From assembly GCF_005848555.1 (NCBI RefSeq), contig NZ_CP040518.1:1239001-1303000 (forward strand): a stretch of DNA of 64,000 nt. Reading direction: 5' to 3'. This document shows, piece after piece, positions 9,772 through 61,134 of the stretch. Position 1 is the first letter of the stretch. Every line of letters starts with the position of its first letter. The notes under the pieces are model-generated. The model saw only the letters and a list, made by a program, of their open reading frames with translations. It ran no database searches and was not told the origin of the DNA. This DNA comes from Blautia sp. SC05B48 (GTDB lineage Bacteria > Bacillota > Clostridia > Lachnospirales > Lachnospiraceae). A program made the translations under genes and the position numbers.

Positions 9772-10008
9772 ATGAGAACAATATTTGCAGAATACAATCC
9801 ACAACGAAACAGCATTGACATTTATACAAATGTTGGCTATATGCTTCGCATTGACTGCTGGGAAGCCGAAAAGGATCTAAAAACCACACCCGGATCAGAC
9901 TGTGCATTGACTTCACTTGCAGTCGATGAACCACTTGAATATGCGAGATTATATCTTGAGGGCAATTTACAGATGTGGGTAGATACAGAAGATTCATTAG
10001 AGTTATAA
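9772..10008 (+). CDS. DUF6061 family small protein
   Basis: A 78-residue protein starting MRTIFAEYNPQRNSIDIYT; the ATG at 9772 has AAGGAG upstream, whereas the earlier ATG at 9751 lies before that site. The sequence follows the DUF6061 pattern (AEYNP...NSIDIYT...GYMLRIDCWEAE, then PLEYARLYLEGNLQ). The family is common in Clostridia and often lies near mobile elements; its role is unknown. A strong terminator follows at once. Confidence 0.7.
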   Translation: MRTIFAEYNPQRNSIDIYTNVGYMLRIDCWEAEKDLKTTPGSDCALTSLAVDEPLEYARLYLEGNLQMWVDTEDSLEL

Positions 10009-10013
10009 AATGC

Positions 10014-10049
10014 AAGCAGCCTGTATGCTTCATTACACACAGGCTGCTT
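10014..10049 (+). terminator. Terminator of DUF6061 gene
   Basis: Perfect 11-base arms AAGCAGCCTGT (10014-10024) and ACAGGCTGCTT (10039-10049) with a 14-base loop; the downstream bases are AT-rich but without a strict T-run. Confidence 0.6.
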
Positions 10050-10167
10050 AATCAAATTTATTATAATTGATGAAAAATCGGTTGCATTTTGTCAAAAGTA
10101 CAAAACTTTTTGAAACCAAATGCTTTTAATTCCTGTTATGATACTGAGGATATCCCAGCAATACTTG

Positions 10168-12612
10168 CTATCCCTGATACCTTATTCTTTCTACCAGCGT
10201 TTCCTTTTTCAGATTACTGCTTAAAACGCAGGAAAGCACAATCTGCAAAAGGCTGACCAGCAAAATCATAGCAAGAATTGGTGTAATTGGAACATGATAG
10301 ATATTCATTCCAAATATTCCATTATGTTTTGCATAGGAAAAAAGTGCATAGCCGAGCGGCAGACCAATGATCAAAGCTACGCATATGGTGCCAACCGTAA
10401 AAATCAGTCCCTGTAACTGCAGGCATAAATTTAATTGTTTATTTGTCATACCCACAGCCTGCAATACACCATATTCCTGCTTTTTTGTCGTAATATTCAT
10501 AATCATGGTGTTTGCCATATTCATAAAACCGATGAGTCCTACAACCGCCATAAACAGATAACAGCCAAGCTTCATCATGCGGGCTGCGACTTCTGCATAT
10601 TGTAACTGCGCATGATAGGTATCCATTTTTATATGCGAAGTATTAGAAATCAAAGTATTCAGACTTTGTTCTACAGATGCCACATCTTTTTTATCACAGT
10701 CCACCCACAGATAGCCATAGGCTGTTCCTCTCGGATTCATGGAACGGTATACACCTTCCGGAATGACAAGATAAGTGTCCGCACTTGCAAAGGATCCTGC
10801 AATCTTTCCCTGATAGGTATAGGTTCCACTTCCATTCTCAAAGTCAAATGCAATGGATTCATCCGGAGCATATCCATCTTGTTCCATCCACGTTGACCAG
10901 CCAAAGAAAATATCACCATTCTTTACCGCCTGATCATAGTCCATAGAGCCAATATCCCCGTCCTGGCGCATAAAATCAAAATCATTTTTACTCACAATAT
11001 CAGCCGGAAATCTTGTTCCGTTCAGATTTACAGAGACAATCTCTCTCGTCATGACATCTGTCACTCCTGGAATGCTTTTGATTTCTTCAATCAGCGAATC
11101 ATTCAATAGATTATCCGTCAGAATCGTATCCAGATTATTCTCCGGATATTTTTCATCATACTCATCAGAATAGTCAAGCTGCAGTTCAAATTGTCCATGA
11201 TTTATGTAACGACGTGCTTCATGCTCCGTGTCAATATTTCCCACATAATTAGAGATAATCACAAACAATGCGCAGGAAAGCCCCAGTGTGAGGATGGTAC
11301 CAATGGTTCTTTTTGGATTACCCGTTATATTTGCCATTGCCATAGAAAACACGGTAACATTTTTTCTGCCATTTCGTTTTCCTTTTTTTTGTGTTTCTGC
11401 ATTTTCTAAATACCGTGTTGCTTCGATAGGTGAAATCCGTGAAACAATTTTCATTGGTTTACGCAGTGCCAAAGCAACGGTAAGAAATGATACGAAAATA
11501 CAGAGAAGCATAACAGGCAGGGAAAACAGTGACACCTGCTGATTTTGGACTCCCATAGAGTCAGTTCCGGTTGATACAAGGTTCCCCTGTTCTACCAGCC
11601 AGTTAAAACCGCATTTTGCAATCAGAAAGCCAAAAAGCAATCCAACCGGTATTGAAAAAATTGTCAAAAAAATGCCCTCTCTAAAGATCAGTTGTTTCAT
11701 CTGCTTTTTTGTCGCTCCCAGAGCCTTGATTTTTCCATACTCCTGTATCTTGTTGGCAATACCGACCTGAAAAATATTATAAATGACCACAACAGAGAAA
11801 AGTACAATTGCAAGAATCAAAACCCCGCATACCGCAATCGTTTCATAACTCGGCTGCAAGACCCATTGCAAATAGAGATCATTGACTATAACGTTTTTTT
11901 CTTCGATCCCACAAGCTGCTGCAATCTGCTTTATAACCGAATCAATATTATTCATAGATACATTTGCAGAATCATTTAAAGTAAAATAAATATTATACTG
12001 TCTGTCATTCTCTGCGACGTGCTCATCATAAAACTCCTGTGACCCGAAAGCAACATAAGATGCCTCGATGGTATACTCATCCCGATCATATAGGATTCCG
12101 CTGACAACAAATTCTTCCGGCTTATATTCTGACTGCATCCCTGCGCGGTAATCCAGTGTAACCGTATCTCCGATCTTTACATCACCATACCCCATTGCAC
12201 GAAAAAATGCTCTTCCTGCGGCAATTTCCTGCATTTTTTCCGGATACTTTCCTTCCTTCAACTCATATTCTTTATTATAAGGAAGCATTTTTCTAGCAGT
12301 CTCATCCATGCAGACAAACCCGCCTTTTTCATTGCCTTTTATGATACCTTCGGTGCACATAGTGCCTGTAGCATCTATTTCCGCACGGCGGTTTACTTCT
12401 TTTAACTGCGATCCGTCTGCGGAAACAAACAGACCATAATTGCTTCCATATGATCCTGCCGCCTGACTTTTCTGTAAATGAATTACCCCATTTCCCACAG
12501 TACTGATAATAACAAGCAGCATCGTGGTCAGACAGATTGCCATCATGATCAGTATACTTCTTGTCCTGTTCCTTTTGTCATTGCTATATGCAATCCTGCT
12601 TATTGTCTTCAT
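10168..12612 (-). CDS. FtsX-type ABC transporter permease, 814 aa
   Basis: A large MacB/FtsX-type permease. It has an N-terminal membrane helix (residues about 20-42), a roughly 200-residue extracytoplasmic domain, three helices near 255-395 with the family LGATKKQMKQL loop, and a repeat of the same unit in the second half (EYGVLQAVGMTNKQLNL near 715). Its start overlaps the ATPase stop (ATGA). With the adjacent kinase and response regulator it resembles operons for peptide or antimicrobial sensing and export. It is longer than LolC-type permeases because the FtsX unit is duplicated. The substrate is unknown. Confidence 0.85.
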   Translation of the reverse strand: MKTISRIAYSNDKRNRTRSILIMMAICLTTMLLVIISTVGNGVIHLQKSQAAGSYGSNYGLFVSADGSQLKEVNRRAEIDATGTMCTEGIIKGNEKGGFVCMDETARKMLPYNKEYELKEGKYPEKMQEIAAGRAFFRAMGYGDVKIGDTVTLDYRAGMQSEYKPEEFVVSGILYDRDEYTIEASYVAFGSQEFYDEHVAENDRQYNIYFTLNDSANVSMNNIDSVIKQIAAACGIEEKNVIVNDLYLQWVLQPSYETIAVCGVLILAIVLFSVVVIYNIFQVGIANKIQEYGKIKALGATKKQMKQLIFREGIFLTIFSIPVGLLFGFLIAKCGFNWLVEQGNLVSTGTDSMGVQNQQVSLFSLPVMLLCIFVSFLTVALALRKPMKIVSRISPIEATRYLENAETQKKGKRNGRKNVTVFSMAMANITGNPKRTIGTILTLGLSCALFVIISNYVGNIDTEHEARRYINHGQFELQLDYSDEYDEKYPENNLDTILTDNLLNDSLIEEIKSIPGVTDVMTREIVSVNLNGTRFPADIVSKNDFDFMRQDGDIGSMDYDQAVKNGDIFFGWSTWMEQDGYAPDESIAFDFENGSGTYTYQGKIAGSFASADTYLVIPEGVYRSMNPRGTAYGYLWVDCDKKDVASVEQSLNTLISNTSHIKMDTYHAQLQYAEVAARMMKLGCYLFMAVVGLIGFMNMANTMIMNITTKKQEYGVLQAVGMTNKQLNLCLQLQGLIFTVGTICVALIIGLPLGYALFSYAKHNGIFGMNIYHVPITPILAMILLVSLLQIVLSCVLSSNLKKETLVERIRYQG

Positions 12613-26321: not shown

Positions 26322-26802
26322 TTAATAGAGCTTTGCACCTGCTGGAATGTGGTCATCAACCATCAGAAGATGGAGCTTTTCTTCGCCTTCTTCTTCGTGG
26401 ATAGCACTGAGGAGCATACCGCAAGAGTCAATGCCCATCATAGCTCTCGGTGGAAGATTTGTGATAGCAATAAGAGTCTTTCCAACCAGTTCTTCCGGCT
26501 CATAAAAGCTATGAATACCGCTTAAAATGGTTCTGTCTGTGTCTGTTCCGTCATCAAGAGTAAACTGTAACAATTTCTTTGACTTCGGTACTGCAACACA
26601 CTCTTTAACCTTTACTGCACGGAAATCTGACTTGCTGAATGTATCAAAATCAACAAATTCCTCAAATAAAGGCTCTACCTTTACCTTAGAAAAATCAATC
26701 TTTTCAGACTCAGTTTTTACATTTTTTTCAGGTGCTTCAGAAGCTGTATTATTTACATCATTTTTCTTATTTACACCATCTAAGGACTTCATTGTCGGGA
26801 AT
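26322..26802 (-). pseudogene. metG 3' portion: MetRS C-terminal tRNA-binding domain (copy 2)
   Basis: The frame encodes about 156 residues: a linker, then the EMAP/Trbp111-like tRNA-binding domain of methionyl-tRNA synthetase (FDTFSKSDFRAVKVKECVAV, then ITNLPPRAMMGIDSCGMLLS, ending HIPAGAKLY). It lacks the catalytic domain. Similarity to copy 3 begins at the shared bases CATTGTCGGGAA (26790-26801). It lies 170 bases after the element integrase, so the element carries or acquired a replacement 3' end of its target gene. Without an obvious promoter it is probably not expressed by itself. Confidence 0.75.
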
Positions 26803-44955: not shown

Positions 44956-45441
44956 TTAGTACAGCTTTGCACCTGCCGGAATATGGTTATCAACCATCAG
45001 AAGATGAAGTTTTTCTTCGCCCTCTTCCTCATGGATTGCACTAAGTAACATTCCACAGGAATCAATTCCCATCATAGCTCTTGGCGGCAGGTTTGTGATA
45101 GCGATCAGTGTTTTTCCAACCAGTTCTTCTGGCTCATAATAAGCGTGAATACCGCTTAAAATGGTACGATCTGTGCCTGTTCCATCGTCCAGAGTGAACT
45201 GTAACAGCTTCTTGGATTTCTTAACTGCTTCACATGCTTTTACCTTTACAGCTCTGAAATCTGACTTGCTGAAAGTATCGAAATCAACAAATTCCTCAAA
45301 TAAAGGCTCTACCTTTACCTTGGAGAAGTCGATAACTTCTTCTTTCTCCGGTGCTGCTGTGGAAGTGCTGTTTTCTGACTTCGCAGATTTCTTATCAGCG
45401 TCCAGTGACTTCATTGTCGGGAAAACTGATTCGCTTACCAT
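44956..45441 (-). pseudogene. metG 3' portion: MetRS C-terminal tRNA-binding domain (copy 3)
   Basis: An open frame of 161 residues, closely similar to copy 2 (FDTFSKSDFRAVKVKACEAV, then ITNLPPRAMMGIDSCGMLLS, ending NHIPAGAKLY). It has no catalytic domain. It lies 150 bases past the 45591 integrase, the same arrangement as copy 2. It is the target-gene 3' end at the junction of two tandem elements; the complete metG should lie outside the window. Confidence 0.75.
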
Positions 45442-45590: not shown

Positions 45591-46829
45591 CTAGAATATG
45601 TCTAAATTATGTGATAATTTTTCTATTGCTTCTGTTTTTTTCATATCGGTGACTTCGGCATATATATCCATCGTTGTCTCAATATTTGCATGTCCCATAA
45701 CTGCCTGTATCACCTTAATATTCGTTTCATTTTCGCAGAATCTCGTACAAAAAGTATGTCTCAAATGATGGCAGGAAAAATGTGGAATAATGATCGGCTC
45801 TCTTTTCTCCTTTTTTGCTTTTAAAATTTCTTCTGCATTGTAGTTTTCCCGGATGCGTTTGATTGTCCGGTTGACTGCCTGCGGATTATGAAGATTGCCA
45901 AACCGATTTGTAAATATAAATCCCTCCATACCGTCCAGTGTAACGGTACTGAATCCATTTTCTTTCTGATATTCATACTCTTCCATAAAAGCATTATATA
46001 CTGGCTCCATCATCGGAACTGTACGAATGCCCGCCTCTGTTTTAGGTAACGAAACAGCAAATTCGCATTTGGTTGTTTCTGCTCTGCGTGGATAATATGT
46101 AACACTGTGATTAATATTGATCAGTCGTTTCTCTAAATCAATATCTTCCCATCGAATCCCAATAATCTCACCTATACGACATCCTGTACCTAAAAGAACC
46201 GTAAACAATGGTGCCCAATGATTAAATACCGGACTGTTCGATGTATAATTCATAAATGCTCTCTGCTGTTCTACTGTCAACGCATGTCTCACTCCATGAT
46301 TCCTCCCTGGTTTCTTTTTTATTTCTGACATTACACCATGAGATGGGTTGTTTCGGATAATATCATCTCGCACTGCTAACTGAAATGTTGGATGAAGCAC
46401 CGTATGAATCGTTTCCAGTGTATTAACCTGCAATTTTCTTTCATTTATCAAATGATAATAAAAGTACAGTACATCTGAATATTTAATTTCACCGATTTTC
46501 TTCTTTCCAAAACTGTCTCTGACGTAATGATCATACATGTACATATAATTGGTATATGTTGTTCGTCTCAACTCTGTTTTCGTAGAAATATATCTATCAA
46601 ATACAAAATTAAGATTGGCATTTCCCGCAGCATACACATCAAGACCGTCTAATTGGTCTTTCAACAATTTCTGCTCTTTTTCCCTTAACTTAACCAAATC
46701 CTTGGAATATGTATATCTTCTTTTTCCAAATGGATCTGTATAAGTGTATATGTACATCAGGTCGGACTGGCGTTGACTCTCGCCTTTGCGTAAGGCCCTG
46801 CCTCTGTTATCTTTTCTTGCTTTTGCCAC
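45591..46829 (-). CDS. int: Tn916-type tyrosine recombinase (integrase)
   Basis: An intact 412-residue integrase starting at GTG (46829), with GGAAGGAG upstream. Domains: arm-binding N-terminus (RGRALRKGESQRQSDLMYIY), SAM-like core binding (about 70-170), catalytic domain with Arg in TGCRIGEIIGI, HxxR in HHLRHTFCTR, His in MGHANIET and nucleophile Tyr in MDIYAEVTD. It is very similar to the frameshifted integrase at 26972, and both sit beside metG copies, so both should recombine at metG. It is the integrase of the element extending to the right. Confidence 0.9.
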   Translation of the reverse strand: MAKARKDNRGRALRKGESQRQSDLMYIYTYTDPFGKRRYTYSKDLVKLREKEQKLLKDQLDGLDVYAAGNANLNFVFDRYISTKTELRRTTYTNYMYMYDHYVRDSFGKKKIGEIKYSDVLYFYYHLINERKLQVNTLETIHTVLHPTFQLAVRDDIIRNNPSHGVMSEIKKKPGRNHGVRHALTVEQQRAFMNYTSNSPVFNHWAPLFTVLLGTGCRIGEIIGIRWEDIDLEKRLININHSVTYYPRRAETTKCEFAVSLPKTEAGIRTVPMMEPVYNAFMEEYEYQKENGFSTVTLDGMEGFIFTNRFGNLHNPQAVNRTIKRIRENYNAEEILKAKKEKREPIIIPHFSCHHLRHTFCTRFCENETNIKVIQAVMGHANIETTMDIYAEVTDMKKTEAIEKLSHNLDIF

Positions 46830-47717: not shown

Positions 47718-47975
47718 TTAGCGAACTATTTTAAATCCAATAATTGTTTTTATCAATTTTGTTTCCAGACGTCTGCGAAGTGTTTCATCTACACAATAAT
47801 GAACACAGCCATACTCATCATACATTTTTCTGACCGATAATTTTGCAATATATCCTTCATAATGTTTCAGAATTTTATTTATCGCCTGAATGTCACCCTC
47901 CAATGCTCTTTCGATTACCCAAAACGGTATCAATTTTTTATTATTTACGCTTTTTTCTTCCGTTTTCACCTGCAT
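47718..47975 (-). CDS. HTH_16 domain regulator of conjugative-transposon type
   Basis: An 85-residue protein with the pattern of the Tn916 orf8-like helix-turn-helix family: IPFWVIERALEGDIQAINKI, then HYEGYIAKLSVRK and RLETKLIKTIIGFK. Its start overlaps the end of the sigma-factor gene by 35 bases. The pair (sigma-like plus HTH_16) regulates transfer or excision genes in Tn916-family elements. Confidence 0.75.
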   Translation of the reverse strand: MQVKTEEKSVNNKKLIPFWVIERALEGDIQAINKILKHYEGYIAKLSVRKMYDEYGCVHYCVDETLRRRLETKLIKTIIGFKIVR

Positions 47976-48396
47976 TTTCCTCCAGCATAATCTTTAATAT
48001 TTCAAGCGATCGTGTACGATGCTCATGTACCGTACTTCTTACCAGGTTCAGTTTTCTTGCTATATCCGCATCATTCATTTCCATAAAGTATGACAAAAGA
48101 ATAATGTCCCTTTTTCTCTCTGTCAGTGCAGTTAATGCTTCTGCCAATAGAGCATTTTTTACCTCTACATCATAACCGCCTGCCCGAAAATAGCTTTTTT
48201 CCAATTCATATTCATCAAATATAGAAAGGCTCTCCATCTCTTGTTCAGATAATTCTGAAAACAAAGTTTCATGTTTTCTAAGATAAGCTAAATGCCTTTC
48301 ATAATCCACTATTTCGCCCTTTAGTGCCAATTTGCATTTTCGATCAAACTGGTGCATTACCCTTTTCTCATCGTAGGAAGAAGATTGCTCCATAGA
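47941..48396 (-). CDS. Sigma-70-like regulator (Tn916 Orf7 type)
   Basis: A 151-residue protein; the ATG at 48396 follows AAGGAGGT. The C-terminal half is a sigma region 4 (LTERKRDIILLSYFMEMNDADIARKLNLVRSTVHEHR, given as two parts: LTERKRDIILLSYFMEMNDA and DIARKLNLVRSTVHEHR). The N-terminus is helical and charged. Tn916-type elements use such a protein with an HTH_16 partner to control excision and transfer. Confidence 0.8.
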   Translation of the reverse strand, partial: SMEQSSSYDEKRVMHQFDRKCKLALKGEIVDYERHLAYLRKHETLFSELSEQEMESLSIFDEYELEKSYFRAGGYDVEVKNALLAEALTALTERKRDIILLSYFMEMNDADIARKLNLVRSTVHEHRTRSLEILKIMLEENAGENGRKKRK

Positions 48397-48524
48397 GTTC
48401 ACCTCCTTCCCGACCATGAGATATGAGCAAAGGTCTTTTTCCCTTTCACCCTTATCCCGATTGGGAAGCCCCCATTGTTCGGGTTTAAAAGAAAAACTCT
48501 ATAAAAAAGTTCTTATGATATACA

Positions 48525-48639: not shown

Positions 48640-49230
48640 TCATCTCCGCTTATTCTTGCTCTTTTCAATTTTATATTTCAAAATACCAACATACTGAGAG
48701 ATTAAAATTATAAAGGAAGTCAGTGCAACTAAGGAAAGTATGGCTAGTATTCCTGCAAGTGTACAACAACCAGCAAATACAATAACAGCAATTAAGACTT
48801 TCATGGTTACTTTTTTGCAGTGTTCTTTTTCAGTATCATCAAGTTCTCGATTGACACACTCTACTGGTGCAGCTTTCAATATCAATATCGCACTTACTAA
48901 TATAAGAAGCCATGCTGTACCTACCGTAAATTTATATTTACTGTTAAAATACATTGCTATTGTCTGTACAGTGACTGAACATATAAAACATGATCCAAAA
49001 CTGTTAAGATGCACGCCACCTGCATAAGTCCGTAGCAACATAAAAATCCCCGTAAATATTGCAAATTCCGGAATCATATGCATATATATTGCTATACTCA
49101 AACAAGTTACGAAACAGCATAGCATCTCAAGTCCAATCTGAAAGCCATATTGATATATGTCATATGATTCCGAAGGAACTGCACCGGTCTTAATAACATA
49201 TTTTGTTAATTTTTCTGACAGCCGTCTCAT
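48640..49230 (-). CDS. agrB: AgrB-type autoinducer peptide processing protease
   Basis: A 196-residue membrane cysteine protease with five to six helices. The catalytic His and Cys are in LRTYAGGVHLNSFGSCFI. AgrB removes the C-terminal tail of AgrD and forms the cyclic thiolactone intermediate. It directly follows agrD (one base between). The hydrophilic loop NRELDDTEKEHCKK lies between helices near residue 130. It is intact. Confidence 0.9.
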   Translation of the reverse strand: MRRLSEKLTKYVIKTGAVPSESYDIYQYGFQIGLEMLCCFVTCLSIAIYMHMIPEFAIFTGIFMLLRTYAGGVHLNSFGSCFICSVTVQTIAMYFNSKYKFTVGTAWLLILVSAILILKAAPVECVNRELDDTEKEHCKKVTMKVLIAVIVFAGCCTLAGILAILSLVALTSFIILISQYVGILKYKIEKSKNKRR

Positions 49231-49231
49231 T

Positions 49232-49381
49232 TCAAATCTTTTTAAGTTTTTTCAAGTCCTTCGGAACTTTCGGCTGGTGAAAGATATAGCAACATGCACT
49301 ATCCGCTGACACTTTTCCAAGTTTTAAAGATACATTTGCCAGTGCTTTCGCTGACTGAGCTTTTACATTTTTCATATTCAT
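49232..49381 (-). CDS. agrD: AgrD-type cyclic autoinducer peptide precursor (49 aa)
   Basis: The ATG at 49381 follows AAAGGAG. The precursor has an amphipathic N-terminus (MNMKNVKAQSAKALANVSLK), a centre SADSACCYIF and the conserved tail HQPKVPKDLKK that AgrB removes. Two adjacent Cys (30 and 31) are present, so the five-residue thiolactone ring could be C30-F34 or C31-H35. A LytTR-type promoter element lies 65-92 bases upstream. Confidence 0.85.
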   Translation of the reverse strand: MNMKNVKAQSAKALANVSLKLGKVSADSACCYIFHQPKVPKDLKKLKKI

Positions 49382-49445
49382 AGTAAAACTCTCCTTTCGT
49401 TTTCTTTTTAAAACAATACTACAAAAATACATTCCATTTCTTTTT

Positions 49446-49473
49446 CTGTAAAAAAAACGAGTATTCATGTAAC
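49446..49473 (-). promoter_or_regulatory. LytTR-type regulator box upstream of agrD
   Basis: On the minus strand TTACATGAATACTCG, six bases, TTACAG. The same element occurs at 50012-50041 and 61105-61134. A -10-like TATTGT follows 24 bases after the aligned block. Confidence 0.7.
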
Positions 49474-49533
49474 TTTTTCCTATGGCACTACTACAAACAC
49501 CAATATTTCTTAACAAAAAAGGTTGCAATGAAT

Positions 49534-49941
49534 TCATTGATCATTACAACCTTTTTGAGAACCATACTTTTTTAAGTACCATATCCACAATAATATCTCT
49601 TCTATTTTTTTTTGATATTCTTGTAAATCCTCCACATTCTCCAAATAATCATACACTCCTGCCTTCAATACCGAAAAAATATCCTGCTTTGTCCCATTTT
49701 CAATCAAAGCAAGAATTGGAATTGTATTTCCCAATATCCCTTTTACTCTGACGATAAATTCAAATGTTCCTTTTTCAACCATTTTTTTATTAAAATACAT
49801 AATAATAACATCTGGAGTAAAATGCTTATCATCATCCGACCAATCATAGGTGCACCACTTCAGTTTATACTTTCCTTTTGTTATTTTATTTGTAGTTTTA
49901 AATATTTCTCTATGATCACTAAACAATAATATCTTTTTCAT
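49534..49941 (-). CDS. Stand-alone receiver-like protein in the agr locus
   Basis: A 135-residue protein resembling a response-regulator receiver domain: KKILLFSDHREIFKTTNK at the start, VIIMYFNKKMVEKG around strand 3, GNTIPILALIENGTKQDIFS and VLKAGVYDYLENVEDLQEYQ for helix 4 to helix 5. The acidic pair and the phospho-acceptor Asp are not in their usual places, so it is probably a pseudo-receiver. It has its own copy of the LytTR-type box, so it is part of the quorum-sensing regulon. No family function is known to me. Confidence 0.65.
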   Translation of the reverse strand: MKKILLFSDHREIFKTTNKITKGKYKLKWCTYDWSDDDKHFTPDVIIMYFNKKMVEKGTFEFIVRVKGILGNTIPILALIENGTKQDIFSVLKAGVYDYLENVEDLQEYQKKIEEILLWIWYLKKYGSQKGCNDQ

Positions 49942-50011
49942 TCTACCCTACCATGACGTTCAAATCGTAAAATTATTTTTACATTTTATCATGTTATTTC
50001 AAACATTATTT

Positions 50012-50041
50012 ACATTGTAATAATTCCGACTATTCGTGTAA
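50012..50041 (-). promoter_or_regulatory. LytTR-type regulator box upstream of the receiver gene
   Basis: On the minus strand TTACACGAATAGTCG, six bases, TTACAATGT. TAAAAT follows 23 bases after the aligned block as -10. Confidence 0.7.
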
Positions 50042-51343
50042 TTATTCCTTTTCTCCGTACAACACGACTCTCACCAGAAATCTTTCTGGTATAGAATCAT
50101 CAACTGTAACTATTCCATTATACTTCGCTGCAGCTCGATAAACTGACGGCAAACCAACGCCATGATTTCCAGCATCGGATTTCGTAGATTTCAGTCTCTC
50201 ATCCTTCATTTTTATTAATTGCCCCTGGTAACTATTCATTAAAAATATCAGCAGATTGCCTTTATCATATTTCATTTGGATTTTTATGTACTTCTTCTTT
50301 TTTACCCTTTCAGCCGCTTCTACAGCATTTTCTAATAAATTCCCAAGTATCAGACATATATCCGCACCCTTAAACTCCATCTTCATAGGAATCTTTATAT
50401 CCAAAGAAAAATCTATCCCTTTCTTTTGTGCTGTTACATACCAATATCCAAGTAGTGAATCAATTACAATGTTGCCACTATTGGCAACCACAGATATTGA
50501 TAAGCCACTTTCATCCATTATGTCCTGGATAAATTCTATGATTTTCTCGTCTTCTCCTTTCTCTGCGTAAGCAAGAATAGATACTAGATTATTTTTCATA
50601 TTATGTTTCATGTCTCTTAATTGCAACATGGAAAGTTCTCTTTCTTGTTGATGTCGTTCACATAATTCCAATTGTTGTTCATAAACTGAAGTCATCCGCC
50701 TTAACTGTAAATCATCCGTCAACTTCACATAAATATAAAAAATCAATATATTTAAGCACAGCAAAATAATCGCAGCAATTGCAGAATGAAAATATGCACG
50801 ATCATTATTTATTTTGTAGCTAAATAAGAAAACCTCATTCATAACATAAATACTTCCAATTGGAATTAAAATTAACATAATACTGTATTTAACAGAAAAT
50901 TCTGTAATTCCACCTACCGAAAATATTTTTCTTAGTGCAAATATAATCAGTAAAAATAATATTTTTGATATGACTGATCCTAGGATTCCGTACATCTGAG
51001 AATATCTAAATTGATTACAATAGATTGAAAGTATATAACCACTTACTGTTTCTATCATCATCCAAATTGCATTAAAAGCCAGAACAAAAATACATTTATT
51101 CAAATTCCTTCCTTCATAAACACACATAGCTGAAATAAATGTTATTACAATTGTAACGCTTATATTGATGTAAACTGGTAATATACTGGCATTCAAAAGC
51201 ATTAACTGCCAGACTGCAAAAATGGTGTAGCCAATTACAATTGTTATCTTTTTCTTTCTTCTTGTAAAAAATATAGAAAAATAGCAAGAAAACAGAAATA
51301 TCGCAAATATTACGAGCAATATCTCTGTCACATTCATCAACAT
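50042..51343 (-). CDS. agrC: AgrC-type sensor histidine kinase (GHKL)
   Basis: A 433-residue kinase with six to seven N-terminal membrane helices (about 1-190), a linker, and the AgrC/LytS-type kinase core: H-box MLQLRDMKHNMKNNLVSILA, N-box LILGNLLENAVEAAERV and G-box NHGVGLPSVYRAA. AgrC detects the thiolactone peptide outside the cell. The start MLMNVTEIL overlaps the response-regulator stop region. Intact and of normal length. Confidence 0.85.
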   Translation of the reverse strand: MLMNVTEILLVIFAIFLFSCYFSIFFTRRKKKITIVIGYTIFAVWQLMLLNASILPVYINISVTIVITFISAMCVYEGRNLNKCIFVLAFNAIWMMIETVSGYILSIYCNQFRYSQMYGILGSVISKILFLLIIFALRKIFSVGGITEFSVKYSIMLILIPIGSIYVMNEVFLFSYKINNDRAYFHSAIAAIILLCLNILIFYIYVKLTDDLQLRRMTSVYEQQLELCERHQQERELSMLQLRDMKHNMKNNLVSILAYAEKGEDEKIIEFIQDIMDESGLSISVVANSGNIVIDSLLGYWYVTAQKKGIDFSLDIKIPMKMEFKGADICLILGNLLENAVEAAERVKKKKYIKIQMKYDKGNLLIFLMNSYQGQLIKMKDERLKSTKSDAGNHGVGLPSVYRAAAKYNGIVTVDDSIPERFLVRVVLYGEKE

Positions 51344-51344
51344 T

Positions 51345-52073
51345 TTATTCACCAACATAAAATGTATCCTCCATCGAGCAGTACTGTTCACTAATCATTT
51401 TTCTTCTATCTTCACTGATTGAAATCTTCTTTCCATTATCCATTATAACAAAGTCATATGCCAATCCATCCACATGTCTATAATTTACAAGAAAAGATTG
51501 ATGCACACGTAAAAACGGCATTTTACAGTTCTTCAAGCTTTTCTCAATCTCATTCAGTTTTTCGTATACTTCATAGGTATCTTTTTCTGTTACAATGGAT
51601 ATTTTTCGTCTATTGCTTTCAAAATATAAAATGTCTCTTACCGGAACTTTATAACTTATTCTCTTATAACTATATCGAAAATAAAAATCGGTATTATTTA
51701 TATCACTGAATGCAGCTTTAAAACATGTTTCCATCTGTTCTTCAGCTACTGGCTTCACGAGAAATTGAAATGGACGAACAGAAAAAGAGTCTCTCATATG
51801 ATTTTCATGGCTTGTGACGTAAATAATCAAAACATTTTTGTCATACGTTCTTATTCTTTTTGCTACTGAGATACCATCTTCTTTCGGCATTTCAATATCA
51901 AGATAAATAATATCAAATTTACTGTCCTTTATAATAGCATCCAGCAAACCTTGTCCATTCCAGAAAACTTCCGTCTCTACTTCAACAAAATTTTTGTTTG
52001 CTATTTTTCGTACTAAATTTTCAATCGTTCCTGTAATCTGTATATCATCATCGCAAATTGCTATATTTAGCAT
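51345..52073 (-). CDS. agrA: AgrA-type LytTR response regulator
   Basis: A 242-residue regulator: receiver with acidic pair ICDDDIQI, Asp in FDIIYLDIEMPKEDG (about residue 60), YVTSHENHM and the Lys of FQFLVKPVAEEQ; then a LytTR DNA-binding domain (VRDILYFESNRRKISIVTEK, FLRVHQSFLVNYRHVD). LytTR proteins bind two direct repeats about 21 bases apart, the shape of the box found at 49446, 50012 and 61105. It overlaps or abuts the XRE gene upstream and the kinase gene downstream. Confidence 0.9.
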   Translation of the reverse strand: MLNIAICDDDIQITGTIENLVRKIANKNFVEVETEVFWNGQGLLDAIIKDSKFDIIYLDIEMPKEDGISVAKRIRTYDKNVLIIYVTSHENHMRDSFSVRPFQFLVKPVAEEQMETCFKAAFSDINNTDFYFRYSYKRISYKVPVRDILYFESNRRKISIVTEKDTYEVYEKLNEIEKSLKNCKMPFLRVHQSFLVNYRHVDGLAYDFVIMDNGKKISISEDRRKMISEQYCSMEDTFYVGE

Positions 52074-52074
52074 T

Positions 52075-52443
52075 TTAATCCACTCTCTTCTGTTCCCTTT
52101 TTCTCTTTTCATCCAATTTTTTAATAATTTGTATAATTGACCATATCATTTCCTGATCATATTTATCCAGGTTCTTGTATATCTCCACAAGATCATAGTA
52201 TTCGTCCAACGTCTCATTCACTTTCATTTGTCCCTGTAAATCTCTCTTAACCTCTGATAGCCCTAACAAATAATCTGTTGTCACATTAAAATATACCGCT
52301 ATTTTTTTTAGAATGTCTACTTTAATAAACGTAACATCTCTTTCATATTTACTGAGCATCTGTTGTGTTATTCCTAATTCTGCGGCCAAAATTTCTTGTA
52401 TTAACCCTCTTTTTTCACGAAGTTGTTTGATACGACTTTCCAT
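52075..52443 (-). CDS. XRE-family regulator leading the agrAC operon
   Basis: A 122-residue protein with a Cro/CI HTH (IKQLREKRGLIQEILAAELG, then ITQQMLSKYERD, IAVYFNVTTDYLLGLSE) and a helical C-terminus. It sits two bases before agrA and so is co-transcribed with the sensor pair. It may set the basal level of the quorum system. It is separated from the RiPP genes by the IS1634-like insertion. Confidence 0.8.
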   Translation of the reverse strand: MESRIKQLREKRGLIQEILAAELGITQQMLSKYERDVTFIKVDILKKIAVYFNVTTDYLLGLSEVKRDLQGQMKVNETLDEYYDLVEIYKNLDKYDQEMIWSIIQIIKKLDEKRKREQKRVD

Positions 52444-54781: not shown

Positions 54782-56062
54782 TTACTTAATCATAAGTATA
54801 CTCGATAACAAGAAAACTATAATGCTTAATACAGTGTATATCTTATTTAATAAATTTTTATTTTTTATTCCAAAGTACATCGTTATCCATATATACATCA
54901 CCATTATCACTCCAAAAATAATACTTAAATAAATACGACTTTTTAATAGAATTGTTACTATTACTGACATAATTATAATATATATGGTTGGTATAATTGA
55001 AAATTGCAAAATAATTTTAGATAACTTAAAAGGTATATATAATCCATTTTTTTGTTTTTCCACAAGATCCGATAATTGTTTAAAAAAAGCTTGTATACTA
55101 AACTGAAATAATGAAAAGACGCCAAAAATTAGCAAAAAATATCGTATTTCTTTAAACTCCAATACTGGTATACTCCAGAATACTGGCAGCGTATATATCA
55201 TAAAAGTTAAGGAAAAACATACAATTCCTATAATAATTGGTAGTTTACCAATCCTACTAATTGATATAACTGCTTTCCACACCAATGGATATTTTTTTAA
55301 AAAGTCCGGCATATATTCTTTTCCATAAAGTTTTCTTGCAATTTTTTCTTTTGAGTACTGATTTAGTAATATGGTATCGTTATTATTTTGTGCTACCAAA
55401 ACCTTATCTAAATACTTAATATCATTCTCATATTTCAAATAATTTATATTCAAATATTTTGCCGTATATATAAATATCAGAATCATACAAACCAAATTAA
55501 TAAATTCTATTATTACAGAAGTACAACTTGTAAGTGTTAAAATACTCAAAAAAACAAAAATCGCTTTCCATATATATATATATGATTGTTTTATTACATT
55601 ATAAATATTCCAAGAAACTAACAACCCTTCAATCAAATATATAGTATACCCCCCAAATACCATCACATATTTATTTGATTGAAAACTTCCGCATGTACAA
55701 AATGCCAACAGCAATGACAATAGCACATATTTTATTACAAAAAAAGCATACTTGAGCACAAATACATCTCTAATTTTTCTTGTATTAAATAAATACAGAG
55801 TCATAGGCTTTACAACGATTTGCGGCATACTGTTTTTTCTCATCTTACAGATAATAGAAGCCAACATACACAAAAAGGATATAAAATAGATTTTACTATC
55901 AAACATTTTTATAGATTTAATTATGTTAAAAAAATCTTTTCCTATTATAGAAAGCACCATTGCTAAAAAAATTATTAATCCAACAATTGGTATATACATA
56001 TTTCTTATTAGCCGAACTTTTTCTCTAATTTTATTTAAAGCTAAAAATTTATATACTTTCAT
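54782..56062 (-). CDS. RiPP ABC exporter permease
   Basis: A 426-residue membrane protein with about ten to twelve helices and a cytoplasmic loop in the middle (NDIKYLDKVLVAQNNNDTIL...). No close family could be named; the size and hydrophobic profile resemble SkfF-type permeases of peptide clusters. The ATG at 56062 follows GGGAG and overlaps the ATPase stop region. It is the last gene of the radical-SAM cluster and would form the exporter or self-immunity pump with the 56064 ATPase. Confidence 0.7.
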   Translation of the reverse strand: MKVYKFLALNKIREKVRLIRNMYIPIVGLIIFLAMVLSIIGKDFFNIIKSIKMFDSKIYFISFLCMLASIICKMRKNSMPQIVVKPMTLYLFNTRKIRDVFVLKYAFFVIKYVLLSLLLAFCTCGSFQSNKYVMVFGGYTIYLIEGLLVSWNIYNVIKQSYIYIWKAIFVFLSILTLTSCTSVIIEFINLVCMILIFIYTAKYLNINYLKYENDIKYLDKVLVAQNNNDTILLNQYSKEKIARKLYGKEYMPDFLKKYPLVWKAVISISRIGKLPIIIGIVCFSLTFMIYTLPVFWSIPVLEFKEIRYFLLIFGVFSLFQFSIQAFFKQLSDLVEKQKNGLYIPFKLSKIILQFSIIPTIYIIIMSVIVTILLKSRIYLSIIFGVIMVMYIWITMYFGIKNKNLLNKIYTVLSIIVFLLSSILMIK

Positions 56063-56063
56063 C

Positions 56064-56786
56064 TCATTGCTCCCTACTTTCAATAATCTGAAGATACAAT
56101 TCTTCTACACTTTTTTTACTATCAAGTCCATATTTCTTTGCAATTTCTTGTTTACTTCCAGCTGCAATAACTTCACCTGCACATATCATAATATATTTAT
56201 CACATAACTCTTCCACCATATCTAATAAATGTGTAGAAATCAGTATTGCCTTATTATTAGCCCTTGATTCGATTAATAAATTTTTAAATTCTTTAATTTG
56301 TTTTGGATCTAATCCATTAAAAGGTTCATCTGCAATAAAAGCCTCATATTCTCGCAGCATTGCTATTGCAATCAACATTTTTTGCAAGGTTCCTTTCGAT
56401 AGCATACTTGGAATTTTATGTAAATGAGGCTGCAATTCCATACGCTTTACAAGTTCCTGTATATCTATATCATTTGATGGATATAACGCATGAACAAATT
56501 GTAAATGCTCCATCAAAGTTAACTCTTCATAATAAACAGGTTCATCCGGAATATATGCAATATTCAATTCATCCATTTGAATATCTTTCAGCAACTTTCC
56601 ATTTAATAATATCTCACCGCTTTTAGGAATAAGCTTTTTTACGATATTATATATAATTGTCGTTTTACCGGCTCCGTTAGCTCCGATTAATCCTGTAATT
56701 TCTCCTTTTTCCACTCCAAAATTTACATTTTTTAAAATAACATTTTCTCCATATGAAAAGTTTATATTTTTTAATTCTAAGTACAT
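56064..56786 (-). CDS. RiPP ABC transporter ATP-binding protein
   Basis: A 240-residue ATPase: Walker A GANGAGKTT, signature SMLSKGTLQKM (a variant of LSGGQ), Walker B EAFIADEPFNGLDP and H-loop ISTHLLDM. This is the CcmA/BcrA-like type used for peptide export and immunity. It starts 13 bases after the TldE-like gene stop, within the same operon. Confidence 0.85.
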   Translation of the reverse strand: MYLELKNINFSYGENVILKNVNFGVEKGEITGLIGANGAGKTTIIYNIVKKLIPKSGEILLNGKLLKDIQMDELNIAYIPDEPVYYEELTLMEHLQFVHALYPSNDIDIQELVKRMELQPHLHKIPSMLSKGTLQKMLIAIAMLREYEAFIADEPFNGLDPKQIKEFKNLLIESRANNKAILISTHLLDMVEELCDKYIMICAGEVIAAGSKQEIAKKYGLDSKKSVEELYLQIIESREQ

Positions 56787-56799
56787 ATCTGATCCCTCA

Positions 56800-58140
56800 T
56801 TATTTTAATATTGTTCTTTTTACTACTACGTCTGGTGCTAATATATTTCCATCTAATTCATATTTGCATTTATTTCCAACTCCACAGATTTTTATAAGTA
56901 TATCTTCTAGATTTATTTTAGTAGAAATTTCAATTCTGCTTTTTAATTTTCCATGCTGATATTCTTTCCCATATAAAAATGCTGTAAAATCCATAGTAAT
57001 CGGATTAAAGCTTTCCTCTATACCACAAATTTTATCTACTAAAACGATATGTCCCTTTTTCTTTAATTCTATATCTATATTTCCTGATAGAATTTTTATT
57101 TTATCCAGTTTATATCGAATATTTTCACGATAATCATATCTTCGTAATGATCTATAAGATAATGAAACTTTTCCTTCTTTACATATATATTGTTCTTTAA
57201 GTGCCCTTCCTGAACCATCTATATTTCCTCCAACAGTTTTATTATCAAAATCATTTAATTTAATTGTTAAAAATTCACTAATTTCCATGCTTCTGTTTTT
57301 TAAGTTGTTTACATGCATCGTAAAATAATAAATATAAACGATTTTAGCCAAAACATTACTTTGGATTATTAGTTCATCTATATCATTTGGAACAAACTTT
57401 TTTAGATTGACTTTTTCACATAATTTTTCCCAAGCAGTTTCAGCAAATGTTTTTTCTAAACAACTATATATATCTGTTCCCAAAAATATTTGCGACTTAC
57501 TTTCTATTCTTTCGCCAATTCTATACACTAAATTAGTATTAATTACATTTTTATATCCATATCCTTTAATGCCATCTGAAGTCATTAAATTGAATAATAC
57601 ATATTGACATATTCCATTCATTTCAATCAGCATTATATTTTGTTTTCCTAATTCATTTTTCAATTTGAAATACAGTTGTTTATAATCTCTTTTATTTACG
57701 ATAATTTCACCGAGTTCTAATCTGTTACTTTTTTGTGCAACGCTACTTTTTAGGACACCCTTTTCTTCGATATTAAGAGGTAACTCTATATATTCGTTCT
57801 TTAAATCTTCGAATCTAATATCCTCATTTTTATATACACCATTATACATTTTACATAAAATCTTTTTTTTGATCTTCTTTCGAATTGAACTTCCATTTAT
57901 TACACCTTTAATAATAGTTTGCTTTCCATCAATAATACGGATTTCTTCGTTCCAAGATGCAGAACTAAAAACTTCTTCATTTGCACCGTGAAATTCAAAA
58001 TCATTTAATTGTATATTGTCTGATAAACGAATAATCTGCATATGCACCTCCCCCTCAGTCTGTTCGAAAACTGATTTAACATGGTTTTCATCATCCACTT
58101 TTGTCTTAAAATGAATAGTTAAACCGTCTTCTAGCTCCAC
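56800..58140 (-). CDS. TldE/PmbA-like subunit, 5' end uncertain
   Basis: A protein of about 446 residues, divergent from TldE/PmbA but with the family layout: N-terminal fibronectin-like part, and C-terminal NKTVGGNIDGSGRALKEQYI followed by EGKVSLSYRSLRRYD. TldE lacks the metal motif and pairs with TldD to form the protease. The GTG at 58140 has no ribosome-binding site. A good site AAAGGAGAGG (58216-58225) lies 76 bases upstream and is followed by CTG-AAA-ACT in a frame that closes after about 13 codons, while the main frame is open back to a TAA near 58170. The start may be damaged or shifted. Confidence 0.65.
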   Translation of the reverse strand: MELEDGLTIHFKTKVDDENHVKSVFEQTEGEVHMQIIRLSDNIQLNDFEFHGANEEVFSSASWNEEIRIIDGKQTIIKGVINGSSIRKKIKKKILCKMYNGVYKNEDIRFEDLKNEYIELPLNIEEKGVLKSSVAQKSNRLELGEIIVNKRDYKQLYFKLKNELGKQNIMLIEMNGICQYVLFNLMTSDGIKGYGYKNVINTNLVYRIGERIESKSQIFLGTDIYSCLEKTFAETAWEKLCEKVNLKKFVPNDIDELIIQSNVLAKIVYIYYFTMHVNNLKNRSMEISEFLTIKLNDFDNKTVGGNIDGSGRALKEQYICKEGKVSLSYRSLRRYDYRENIRYKLDKIKILSGNIDIELKKKGHIVLVDKICGIEESFNPITMDFTAFLYGKEYQHGKLKSRIEISTKINLEDILIKICGVGNKCKYELDGNILAPDVVVKRTILK

Positions 58141-58261
58141 ATTATTCTTTTAATGATATTTCAAATTGATTCTTAACTTACGCTTTTAAATCTGACTTTT
58201 TTAGTTTTCAGACAGCCTCTCCTTTACATTTACGATTTATTTACAGGCTTATATCAAAACT

Positions 58262-59461
58262 TTAAAAAAATATTTGTTGACTTTCTAATTTAATAGTTGG
58301 ACATCCATAAGATACATCCAGTTCCTGCCCATCTTTAACACATTTTGCAAACTTAAATTCCAAATCATTTCCAATTTCACTTATTGAATTTAATGTTTTC
58401 AAAACATTTCCTTCTAATAAACATGGTGGTAAAATTGATACAATTTCTCCATTTCTTACATATCCTCCTAATGCAATATTAAAAACAAAATGACCTGATA
58501 CAATATCTACACTCCCGCCACCTAATTCTAAAGCAATGATCCCCTCTCTCATATTATCGATTATTTCATTTGCTGTTTTTTCTCCATTGTGTAAATATGT
58601 ATTTCGCATACGTGGTAACGCCATATTTTCAAATGTTGCACACCTACCGTTCCCAGTATCCTCAACGCCATAACAAGAGGATATATACATATCACTAAGC
58701 AATCCATTAATAACTCCATTTTTTACTAAATCAACGTTTTGTGTAACACTTCCATCCGACGATAAGTTGTAATATATATAATCAATTTCATTACAACTAT
58801 CACTTATATTGATTTGTTTATTAAATATCTTTTTCTTTAACATATTATTTAGAAGACTTTCTTTTTTAAAATAAATATCGCCTTCTAAATTATGCCCAAT
58901 ACCTTCATGAATCAAAACCCCTCCCTGCCCTGGACATAATATTACATTATACTTTGCAGTTTGAAGATTTCTAATTTTTAATTTTGTAATATTTTTATAT
59001 TTTTCCACTATACTCTTTACAATTTCTTGCAAAGCACTACAAATATTTCCGTTTATTACTTTTCTTCTTCTAACAACAGGAATTATTCTTTCATCTAACA
59101 TATATGTCACATTTACTTCTGCAAAGACATTGTTTATCATATCCGTTTTTTCTTTTTCAAATACATATTTATGTTTTTGCAAGATCATAGAAATAAGGAC
59201 TCTCTTTACCGTTCCTACCACTTTTAGACTATGTACCAAATTTTCATACATAAGAGTCCCTATATCTAATTTATCTAATATATTTTCTTTCTCTTTACTA
59301 AAAATATCTTTACTATTTTCGACATATAATCGTCTATCGTAATTTTCAATAGTATACGCCCTTTTTCCTCCCTGCATCGTACTAGAAGCAAATCTTTCAC
59401 CATTCAAGTAATAAACCATATATTCCTGAATTATTTCTGTTGAATTTTTTTCTATTTTCAT
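58262..59461 (-). CDS. tldD: TldD-family metalloprotease
   Basis: A 399-residue protein with the TldD zinc-binding motif HEGIGHNLEGD (near residue 195; HEAVGHxLEGD in E. coli) and the C-terminal domain LLEGNVLKTLNSISEIGNDL. TldD/TldE complexes degrade unfolded peptides and remove leaders of modified peptides such as microcin B17. ATG at 59461 has GAGGAAGG upstream; an earlier ATG (59482) overlaps the radical SAM stop. Placed directly after the radical SAM gene, it should remove the leader of the precursor. Confidence 0.8.
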   Translation of the reverse strand: MKIEKNSTEIIQEYMVYYLNGERFASSTMQGGKRAYTIENYDRRLYVENSKDIFSKEKENILDKLDIGTLMYENLVHSLKVVGTVKRVLISMILQKHKYVFEKEKTDMINNVFAEVNVTYMLDERIIPVVRRRKVINGNICSALQEIVKSIVEKYKNITKLKIRNLQTAKYNVILCPGQGGVLIHEGIGHNLEGDIYFKKESLLNNMLKKKIFNKQINISDSCNEIDYIYYNLSSDGSVTQNVDLVKNGVINGLLSDMYISSCYGVEDTGNGRCATFENMALPRMRNTYLHNGEKTANEIIDNMREGIIALELGGGSVDIVSGHFVFNIALGGYVRNGEIVSILPPCLLEGNVLKTLNSISEIGNDLEFKFAKCVKDGQELDVSYGCPTIKLESQQIFF

Positions 59462-59478
59462 CCAAACCTTCCTCAATT

Positions 59479-60831
59479 TCATTGTATAGGTTTCAATATT
59501 TGATTTAATATTTTAAGAACCCGTTCATTTTCTGTTCTCCAGTTACAATTCGTCTTTGTTAATTCACTCTCATATACATTAGCAATGCATTGTGTACAAC
59601 TGTTTCCATTTGTGCACTCATGACATAGATAAAAATTCGGTGACATTAAATCCTTTATTGTATTTCCAACATCTTTTGTAAGAATCTGTGAAAGCTTATT
59701 CTTTTTTAAATTTCCCATTGAATAAAAAAAACATACACATGGAGAAACATCCCCATTCTCTCGAATTGCAATTTGATTTAAACCTAATCCACAATTATTT
59801 TTATAAGAAACATTTTCTGCTTTCCCTCCAACTTCATCCGAAACATTAACAAAAAAATTTATTGAACTATATTCTTTTTTCATCTTTAATGTTATGCTAT
59901 AAAATTCTTCTACATTTAATTGATTCGCTAATTCGTTTGATGCAGCTCTTCCCACATCCATAGTCAAACCATATGTTATTTGCATAGCTCCCAGTTCTTT
60001 TACTGTTCGTGTTATTTCTTCTATATCACAAATATTATCTTTATTAAATGTAGAAGAAATAGCAACTTTAAATCCATATTTCTTTAAAAGGGTAATGGCA
60101 TTACAGGCCTTCTCATACGAGTCTTTCACACCTCTTATCATATTATGATGTTCTTTGTTTCCATCTATGCTAATCTGAAAGACTGTATTATTTTTACACT
60201 CAGAAATTTCTTGCAATATCTTTTCAGTTATTAAATAACCATTACTCATTACTGCTACTGCTAAAAAATTCTCAGATGCATATCTGCAAATATCTGTAAA
60301 ACCTTTTTTGGCAGTTGGTTCACCCCCAGTTAATGCTACCTTTATAACACCAGATTGTTTCAGATCACTCATAATTTTTATTATTTCATCTGATGATAAT
60401 TCGTCATCTTTTTTATTTCCCGAGTTATTATAACAATGTAAACATTTTAATGGACATTTTTTAGTAATCTCAAATTCCGCATGAAAAGGAGTATATGATT
60501 CACTATCTCCCAAAACTTTGATTTTTTGTATATTTGGTTTTTCCCTAAATTCTATATATCCCTTTTTTACGCTTTCTTGCAAAAACTCGTCCACTATGGT
60601 TTCTATATCTTCTGATTTTTGCTTTATTTTTTCAGATAATATTTTCACGATATCTTCAATTTTTCTTGCACCATTACACAATTCTAATATATATGTGGCA
60701 TCCTTATTAATTATTTCATACATAAAATGGCTTGACACAATAATACCATTTTCTTTTCTACTTAAATTATAAATATATGATTTCTCATATTGCTTCACTA
60801 AAACAACATTCCATTTTAATAATGGATACAT
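59479..60831 (-). CDS. Radical SAM/SPASM peptide-maturation enzyme with PqqD-like domain
   Basis: A 450-residue enzyme. Residues about 35-100 form a PqqD-like recognition element (FMYEIINKDATYILELCNGA, then VDEFLQESVKKGYIEF) that binds leader peptides. The radical SAM core has Cys126, Cys130 and Cys133 (KKCPLKCLHCYN), with ALTGGEPT. The C-terminal SPASM region has at least eight Cys (NNCGLG, SPCVCF, YLCHECTNGNSCTQC, TKTNC) for auxiliary clusters. The ATG at 60831 follows AAAGGAGG. This layout is that of sactipeptide, ranthipeptide and related thioether or C-C forming enzymes. It acts on the upstream 46-residue peptide. Confidence 0.9.
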   Translation of the reverse strand: MYPLLKWNVVLVKQYEKSYIYNLSRKENGIIVSSHFMYEIINKDATYILELCNGARKIEDIVKILSEKIKQKSEDIETIVDEFLQESVKKGYIEFREKPNIQKIKVLGDSESYTPFHAEFEITKKCPLKCLHCYNNSGNKKDDELSSDEIIKIMSDLKQSGVIKVALTGGEPTAKKGFTDICRYASENFLAVAVMSNGYLITEKILQEISECKNNTVFQISIDGNKEHHNMIRGVKDSYEKACNAITLLKKYGFKVAISSTFNKDNICDIEEITRTVKELGAMQITYGLTMDVGRAASNELANQLNVEEFYSITLKMKKEYSSINFFVNVSDEVGGKAENVSYKNNCGLGLNQIAIRENGDVSPCVCFFYSMGNLKKNKLSQILTKDVGNTIKDLMSPNFYLCHECTNGNSCTQCIANVYESELTKTNCNWRTENERVLKILNQILKPIQ

Positions 60832-60845
60832 ATATGTTCCTCCTT

Positions 60846-60880
60846 TCCAAAAATAGCTACCAGAAAACTGGTAGCTATTT
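60846..60880 (-). terminator. Partial terminator between precursor and radical SAM gene
   Basis: AAATAGCTACCAG and CTGGTAGCTATTT (13-base perfect arms, loop of four) followed by T's on the minus strand. It sits 18 bases after the precursor stop and would keep precursor mRNA far above enzyme mRNA. Confidence 0.7.
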
Positions 60881-60898
60881 TCTGTAAAAATTTTGAAT

Positions 60899-61039
60899 TT
60901 AGTAAGCAAGTGCAGTAACATTACTAATGCATGCAAGTGTCAGATAATTCATATCTGGTGCAAATCCTACTAAAATCTGAGCTGCTGTACATCCTGCACA
61001 AGCCGCAGTTTCTGTTCTTTCATATTTTGGATTTAACAT
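60899..61039 (-). CDS. RiPP precursor peptide (46 aa)
   Basis: A small ORF with a strong GGAGG site before its ATG (61039). A short leader (MLNPKYERTETAA) is followed by CAGCTAAQILVG, a hydrophobic middle, and LACISNVTALAY. Cys are at 14, 17 and 37. The CxGC start and a single later Cys resemble the core of sporulation killing factor SkfA, though spacing and length differ. It is the first gene of the operon, separated from the radical SAM gene by a hairpin, and has a LytTR-type box upstream. The mature peptide is probably antimicrobial or a signal; this is inference. Confidence 0.8.
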   Translation of the reverse strand: MLNPKYERTETAACAGCTAAQILVGFAPDMNYLTLACISNVTALAY

Positions 61040-61074: not shown

Positions 61075-61134
61075 ATTATACATATATTTTGGTTTTATTA
61101 TCTAACAATGTAATTATTACGACTACTCATGTAA
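61075..61134 (-). promoter_or_regulatory. LytTR-type box and promoter of the RiPP operon
   Basis: On the minus strand TTACATGAGTAGTCG, six bases, TTACATTGT (61134-61105), then 24 bases to TATAAT (61080-61075). No good -35 hexamer is present, as expected for a promoter that needs an activator. The box is shared with agrD and the receiver gene. Confidence 0.75.

Follow-up and report, generated by a model that had tools for sequence, protein, structure and literature searches.

Among the described systems closest to the one considered here is the sporulation killing factor (SKF), reported as a peptide of 26 residues closed head to tail, in which Cys4 is joined to Met12 by a thioether and Cys1 to Cys16 by a disulfide. 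The skf operon of Anoxybacillus is ordered skfA, skfB, CPBP protease, ATPase and skfF. TldD-type proteases are known from several other peptide pathways: after cleavage by the TldD/E pair of E. coli, microcin B17 retains 13 residues ahead of the first modified one, the cluster-encoded TldD-type PbsP releases another macrocyclic ribosomally synthesized and post-translationally modified peptide (RiPP), and the ortho-tyrosine papers pair such proteases with B12-radical S-adenosylmethionine (SAM) enzymes. The locus described here belongs to Blautia sp. SC05B48 and lies within a 64,000-nt stretch of its genome (NZ_CP040518.1, positions 1,239,001 to 1,303,000; hereafter the window), where six co-directional genes on the minus strand encode a precursor peptide, a radical SAM enzyme, TldD, a TldE-like protein, an ATP-binding cassette (ABC) ATPase and a permease. 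Judged from sequence comparisons, these genes are interpreted, with a probability of about 60%, as a quorum-controlled, mobile, SKF-related cluster producing a thioether peptide of the SKF/sactipeptide kind and located on a conjugative-type element. Among the papers listed in the literature searches, which mostly left out subscription papers, so that absence is not proof, no SKF- or sactipeptide-type enzyme was found joined with TldD/E, nor any described product of such a cluster, in line with an earlier note on this DNA; the word TldD was also absent from one survey of RiPPs in anaerobes and one of rumen bacteriocins.

All the genes that the earlier note had placed on one strand were recovered approximately where it had put them, while the start of the TldE-like gene had to be corrected to about 58041 and the unit was found to reach further upstream, to about 61139, and probably also takes in the agr genes at 48640–52112. 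Gene starts were set by eye at ATG codons with a ribosome site where one was visible. The precursor gene (60899–61039) encodes the expected 46 residues with Cys14, Cys17 and Cys37, opening with an MxxP motif, showing the spacing Pro4-x9-Cys14 and ending 9 residues past the last Cys. It is separated by 67 nt from the gene of the maturase (59479–60831; 450 residues), in which the proposed PqqD (PF05402), radical SAM (PF04055) and SPASM (PF13186) parts were all detected, including the CX3CX2C motif, a seven-Cys SPASM and a PqqD/RRE-like domain, as in RiPP maturases, and whose nearest solved relative is SkfB. The intervening 67 nt hold a hairpin of 15 pairs (60849–60882, minus strand), a probable partial terminator as judged by folding (-22.8 kcal/mol, z = -5.9, a stability equalled by none of 200 shuffles); it corresponds to the partial terminator suggested before, and is absent from the list obtained with the program's own terminator pattern. 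Next come the TldD-type metalloprotease (58262–59461; PF19289, E=4e-46) with the predicted HEGIGHNLEGD and, after a gap of 220 nt, the divergent TldE-like partner without HExxxH (56800–58041). The transporter genes were also as claimed: an ATPase (56064–56786; ABC_tran in Pfam), 34% identical to that of the Anoxybacillus skf operon, and an ABC-type membrane permease (54782–56065, with the reading frame open to 56083), similar to the permeases of two of the further loci described below (L011 and L012). Above the Pfam cut-off no family was assigned to the precursor, the TldE-like protein or the permease. An IS1634 transposase gene is located at the cluster end.

The earlier note had named the lack of a conserved precursor beside homologous radical SAM and TldD genes in other genomes as a finding that would refute it; the search for such a precursor did not refute it and gave seven further loci in which precursor, radical SAM, TldD and ABC genes occurred together: in Ruminococcus flavefaciens (L011), an Atribacteria assembly (L012), Paraclostridium benzoelyticum (L014), two Lactobacillales assemblies (L015 and L019), Olsenella (L018) and a genome of the window's phylum (L119). 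Since both the gene set and the precursor layout recur in such distant genomes, their association is more than chance. TldE was confirmed by Pfam in six of the seven, the short partner at L019 having no match, and the TldD/TldE genes of L015 were on the opposite strand. The stretch following the precursor was folded at L011, L012, L014 and L019 as well (z -3.5 to -5.2); at L015, where 127 of 170 nt were folded, z was -1.5. Genes were read by eye in the best 9 of 80 candidate loci; when 98 radical SAM loci, including short and duplicate ones, were scanned, those seven alone, besides the window, had a TldD-like frame.

Among species representatives the system was rare, being present within the family in 1 of 397 genomes (the window's own) at E<=1e-40. 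At the class level the enzyme was matched in 3 of 391 genomes at 1e-80, the other two lacking TldD, and at the phylum level in 3 of 398 at 1e-70, where the window was joined by L119 and L120. The latter is a locus with precursor, enzyme and ABC genes to which we return below. An enzyme match at 1e-30 was present in 4 of 98 genomes of relatives, three of the four being only 27–28% identical. Database matches to the enzyme comprised 41 proteins, two of which were the window's own sequence; five full-length relatives were 57–63% identical, one of them (59%) from Blautia wexlerae, a species which also has a TldE relative at 40% identity, probably encoded next to the enzyme, as the longest contig is equally long for both. 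In the database, the clusters to which the enzyme and TldE belong had 125 and 76 member sequences, respectively. No relative was found in viral_contigs.

Some other peptides were noticed near distant radical SAM enzymes. Two that are highly alike (GNGCKLCAGCTGCMFCGPS...GFVGFF) and have no NCBIfam match are encoded at L097 (10828–10953), whose genome is from the same genus as the window, and at L099 (6558–6683), on an Anaerococcus plasmid, each with an ABC ATPase gene nearby, and an 80-aa peptide with a CYACIAC core is encoded at L096 (11205–11447) near an enzyme of 27% identity.

The precursor geometry was compared in a set of ten, taken from nine loci (the window, the seven TldD loci and L120) and supplemented with the database variant P0004. 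They had been chosen as small open reading frames in the vicinity of the enzyme that encode two or more Cys and have a ribosome site (except for L012), while spacings were not used in the selection. All ten have MxxP in the leader, at residues 1 to 5 of the reading frame in nine and at residue 14 in L018, and eight have Pro-x9-Cys, with x10 in L015 and x15 in L018. The first and the last Cys are kept throughout, at least two Cys having been a selection criterion for most, and the second Cys stands at +3 from the first in six (window, P0004, L011, L012, L119 and L120). Past the last Cys there are 9 residues in seven precursors, 8 in two and 11 in one, while the distance from the first to the last Cys ranges from 17 to 32; the reported dimensions of SKF leave 10 residues after its last Cys, near the 9 of the window. 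The cores are hydrophobic. Because MxxP persists in L120, which has no TldD/E, the motif probably goes with the enzyme, as a leader recognition element, and not with the protease. Among 2662 small reading frames with a ribosome site, 19 fitted Pro-x9-Cys with a tail of 8 or 9 residues, of which 11 were copies of five cluster precursors and 8 were background; this filter misses L012 (no ribosome-site hit) and L015, L018 and L019 (other spacings). The protein database returned seven matches to the window precursor, six of them being its own sequence, whole or in part, with altered ends, and P0004 (80% identity) the sole true variant. A chance reading frame was also considered for the precursor and dismissed on account of recurrence and geometry.

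A feature absent from the earlier note is an agr-type quorum-sensing system on the same strand, some 2.7 kb away from the last gene of the cluster; one promoter element is common to this system and the precursor. The system comprises genes for an AgrB-type peptide processing protein (48640–49230; PF04647, 5.7e-32), a 49-aa AgrD autoinducer precursor (49232–49381; TIGR04223, 53.5 bits with a cut-off of 19), a GHKL sensor kinase resembling AgrC (50042–51391) and a LytTR response regulator resembling AgrA (51345–52112), with an additional gene for a receiver-like protein of 135 aa (49534–49941) that has no Pfam match and response-regulator matches far below the cut-off. The element, TTACATGAGTAGTCGTAATAATTACA, contains TTACA repeats 21 bp apart and lies on the minus strand upstream of the precursor (61109–61134), with further copies on that strand upstream of agrD (49447–49472) and of the receiver-like gene (50016–50041). 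Allowing up to 3 mismatches, the 3.73-Mb genome has no site besides these three, and the reversed control gave none. As the pattern had been built from its own sites, a comparison of upstream regions is the fairer test: when the 150 nt upstream of the precursor were compared with 46 other such regions in the window, the two best matches were the agr regions (26/31 and 24/31 identical), while the remaining ones reached at most 22/31 and 60 shuffles of the best region at most 23. Generic repeat patterns were not better than chance, and the one pattern that stood out was the longer element derived from the sites. Downstream of the element there is a -35/-10-like pair (61104–61075; spacer of 18 nt), such pairs being no more frequent in the region than by chance. 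AgrA of S. aureus is reported to bind direct repeats located immediately upstream of promoters whose spacers measure 18 and 20 nt. The LytTR regulator is likely to bind the shared element in the window, to judge by the placement of the three sites. The regions upstream of the precursor or enzyme at L014, L011 and L100 had no long repeats shared with regulators, as far as exact words are concerned. On two Paraclostridium plasmids, agr genes adjoin the gene of a distant (24–25%) radical SAM enzyme. A small sigma-70 region 4 protein is encoded just downstream of the window's agr genes, at 47941–48417.

The mobile setting is indicated by MobC-like and relaxase genes upstream of the cluster, followed further upstream by long frames that were read by eye as those of a conjugative element. 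In another genome (G016) a relaxase 83% identical to that of the window was accompanied by recombinase-like frames where the window has the cluster, and the genome gave no close copy of the cluster enzyme. Neither plasmid nor phage copies of the cluster DNA were found and a plasmid search with P0011 gave no match; the plasmid matches to the TldD of L014 and L011, among those listed, covered 52–66% of the query and were mostly Proteobacterial. An inverted-repeat pair was looked for around the IS1634 gene and none was found. Elsewhere in the window, two closely similar proteins with the shared stretch VDFDTFSKSDFRAVKV are encoded at 26322–26792 and 44956–45441, each near an integrase-like gene, the integrase being confirmed by Pfam only for 45591–46829.

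A relation to SKF is suggested, among other features, by the enzyme. In a PDB profile search with the enzyme family SkfB was the best match with 221.9 bits, followed by PqqE with 97.7 bits, and the top two NCBIfam models for the window enzyme were SkfB and AlbA, the latter aligning over the whole protein (residues 12–437). Both are matched by 29 of 29 members of the enzyme set A1 at E<=1e-20, and the seven SPASM cysteines fit all 29 as well; six of the more distant members of A5 needed a looser SPASM pattern, with L018 among the six failing even that. Several findings, however, weigh against the cluster being an SKF-related, quorum-controlled thioether pathway. One is the location of the IS1634 transposase between the agr genes and the cluster; others concern the chemistry, taken up here, and the protease, taken up below. 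No listed cut-off was reached by the enzyme: it scored 145.8 bits with the SkfB model TIGR04403 (curated cut-off 300) and 138.7 bits with the AlbA model NF012164 (cut-off 850), by which direct skf or alb membership was ruled out. Four other radical SAM families match A1 equally at E<=1e-20 and nearly as widely, and the SkfB structure paper regards function in the SkfB subfamily as hard to infer from sequence. According to the same paper, SkfB carries a Twitch domain; a Twitch domain with one auxiliary cluster was not what A1 showed, its 29 members all having the seven-Cys SPASM. Finally, a counterpart of SKF Cys4 is missing from the precursors of L014, L015, L018 and L019 (four of ten), and therefore SKF chemistry cannot hold for the whole group. 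The missed cut-offs, the seven-Cys SPASM pattern and the missing Cys4 counterparts would suit an enzyme installing a different radical modification, such as a ranthipeptide beta/gamma thioether, a carbon-carbon link or an epimerisation, with the rest of the model unchanged. We regard such a modification as a genuine possibility, albeit not a likely one, given that alpha-carbon sactisynthases provide both the two top-scoring family models and the best solved structure, and that the first and last Cys are retained in all ten precursors, although that feature was partly selected for.

The window TldD has HExxxH, PF19289 and, in a structural model, the TldD fold, and keeps a Cys aligned with Cys454 of E. 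coli TldD. The TldE-like protein gave nothing above the Pfam or NCBIfam cut-offs, but the best PDB matches of its model were TldE/TldD/PmbA and it aligned with the R. flavefaciens TldE at E=1e-20, so that the partner proposed earlier can be described as a TldE fold without HExxxH. Two facts speak against a simple role in leader removal. Firstly, the window leader of 13 residues is no longer than the stub left by E. coli TldD/E on microcin B17, so that a ruler of the E. coli kind would leave all 13 in place. A shorter ruler through loss of the N-terminal domain was considered, the window TldD being about 77 residues shorter than the E. coli protein before the catalytic domain, and was not confirmed, as the model aligns over its whole length with E. 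coli TldD; with the whole TldD fold kept, a shorter ruler is not evident. Secondly, L120 combines precursor, enzyme and ABC genes without TldD/E in a genome with zero PF19289 proteins. TldD/E might instead degrade internalized product as an immunity function or perform some other hydrolysis, with a host protease or the export step accounting for leader cleavage, and TldD/TldE relatives do include N-deacetylases, according to the title of a review. We consider this unlikely: TldD adjoins eight of the nine loci having such a precursor, five of the eight hosts with a cluster TldD gave no further PF19289 protein (some of the assemblies may be incomplete), and the TldD-type PbsP frees a product with an N-terminal macrocycle. 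The L120 region (7470–10909) represents a natural control for the protease question.

If the SKF-related interpretation is correct, the following sequence of events can be envisaged. At high cell density the AgrD-derived signal would activate the GHKL kinase and the LytTR regulator, which would turn on the precursor promoter via the shared repeat element, and the hairpin 3' of the precursor gene would result in more precursor than enzyme. The PqqD-like domain of the radical SAM/SPASM enzyme would grip the MxxP leader, and the enzyme would link a residue of the core to a Cys, probably Cys17, which corresponds to Cys4 of SKF. TldD/E would then cut off the short leader near Cys14, Cys14 and Cys37 may pair as a disulfide, as in SKF, and the ABC transporter would export the hydrophobic core and perhaps confer immunity. 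The monoisotopic masses calculated for such forms are 4882.351 for the full precursor and 4880.336 once it has one thioether, while the core of residues 14–46 would have 3375.601 with one thioether, 3373.586 with a disulfide in addition and 3355.575 if cyclised as well; a thioether form from which just MLN is missing would have 4522.168. The earlier model of Cys modification, TldD/E trimming and export is strengthened by the recurrence of a cluster with its own TldD/E, and weakened by L120 and by the stub-length leader.

The product is most likely a bacteriocin directed against neighbors. A precursor promoter element in common with agr genes would also suit a second signal or a cofactor, as would the fact that no separate immunity gene was recognized; such a role nevertheless seems quite improbable, the precursor adjoining an skf-like export cassette and the core sequences differing between hosts. 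An export cassette beside the precursor and host-variable cores are typical of bacteriocins. That the cluster is a decayed, non-working remnant, as the gap before the TldE gene and the terminal transposase might imply, is very improbable, given that six out of six genes have open frames, the catalytic residues are kept and the enzyme and TldE belong to the sizeable database clusters mentioned above.

A more specific proposal is put forward only tentatively, as rather doubtful: an SKF-like family of short-leader, head-to-tail cyclic peptides might exist, in which ring closure as well as leader removal is the work of a dedicated TldD/E, and not of a membrane protease. The tail of 8 or 9 residues (9 of 10 precursors), set against a first-to-last Cys spacing of 17 to 32, would represent a fixed arc of the ring, and in the window the family would be wired to agr on mobile DNA. 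Should the overall interpretation be correct, a family of SKF-related peptides would extend across Bacillota, Olsenella (Actinomycetota) and an Atribacteria assembly, the cluster-dedicated TldD/E pair could be used to study how this protease sets its cut, and a gut bacterium would offer a testable case of agr quorum control over a radical SAM peptide on transferable DNA.

In comparison with known systems, the analogy with skf drawn in the earlier note was borne out by the nearest solved enzyme relative, the core start and the cassette. The gene order precursor, radical SAM, protease, ATPase, permease is the same, and the core start C-A-G-C-x-A-A is in common with the Anoxybacillus SkfA (AAGCAGCWAA there and AACAGCTAA in the window), i.e., C-x-G-C with a later Cys, the match being a short one of 12 residues with E=0.06 against a small set. 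The differences from skf are a full SPASM pattern instead of the Twitch domain reported for SkfB, TldD/E in the place of the CPBP protease, which the window cluster lacks, 13 residues before the first Cys compared to 34 in the Anoxybacillus SkfA, a permease only marginally similar to SkfF, and the presence of the agr-type element. In contrast to the subtilosin A/AlbA system, no AlbE/F-type protease was recognized among the window cluster genes, and, unlike the TldD/E of microcin B17, the window pair is encoded inside its own cluster. The Pbs/biphenomycin system is similar in having a cluster-encoded TldD-type protease (PbsP) for a radical-SAM-crosslinked RiPP, but employs a multinuclear non-heme iron-dependent oxidase (MNIO) and a B12-radical SAM enzyme, with no TldE partner found and an unrelated precursor. 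With agr systems the window shares AgrB, AgrD, a GHKL kinase, a LytTR regulator and a repeat element before the agr promoters, and it differs from them in that the element also precedes the precursor of a radical SAM peptide.

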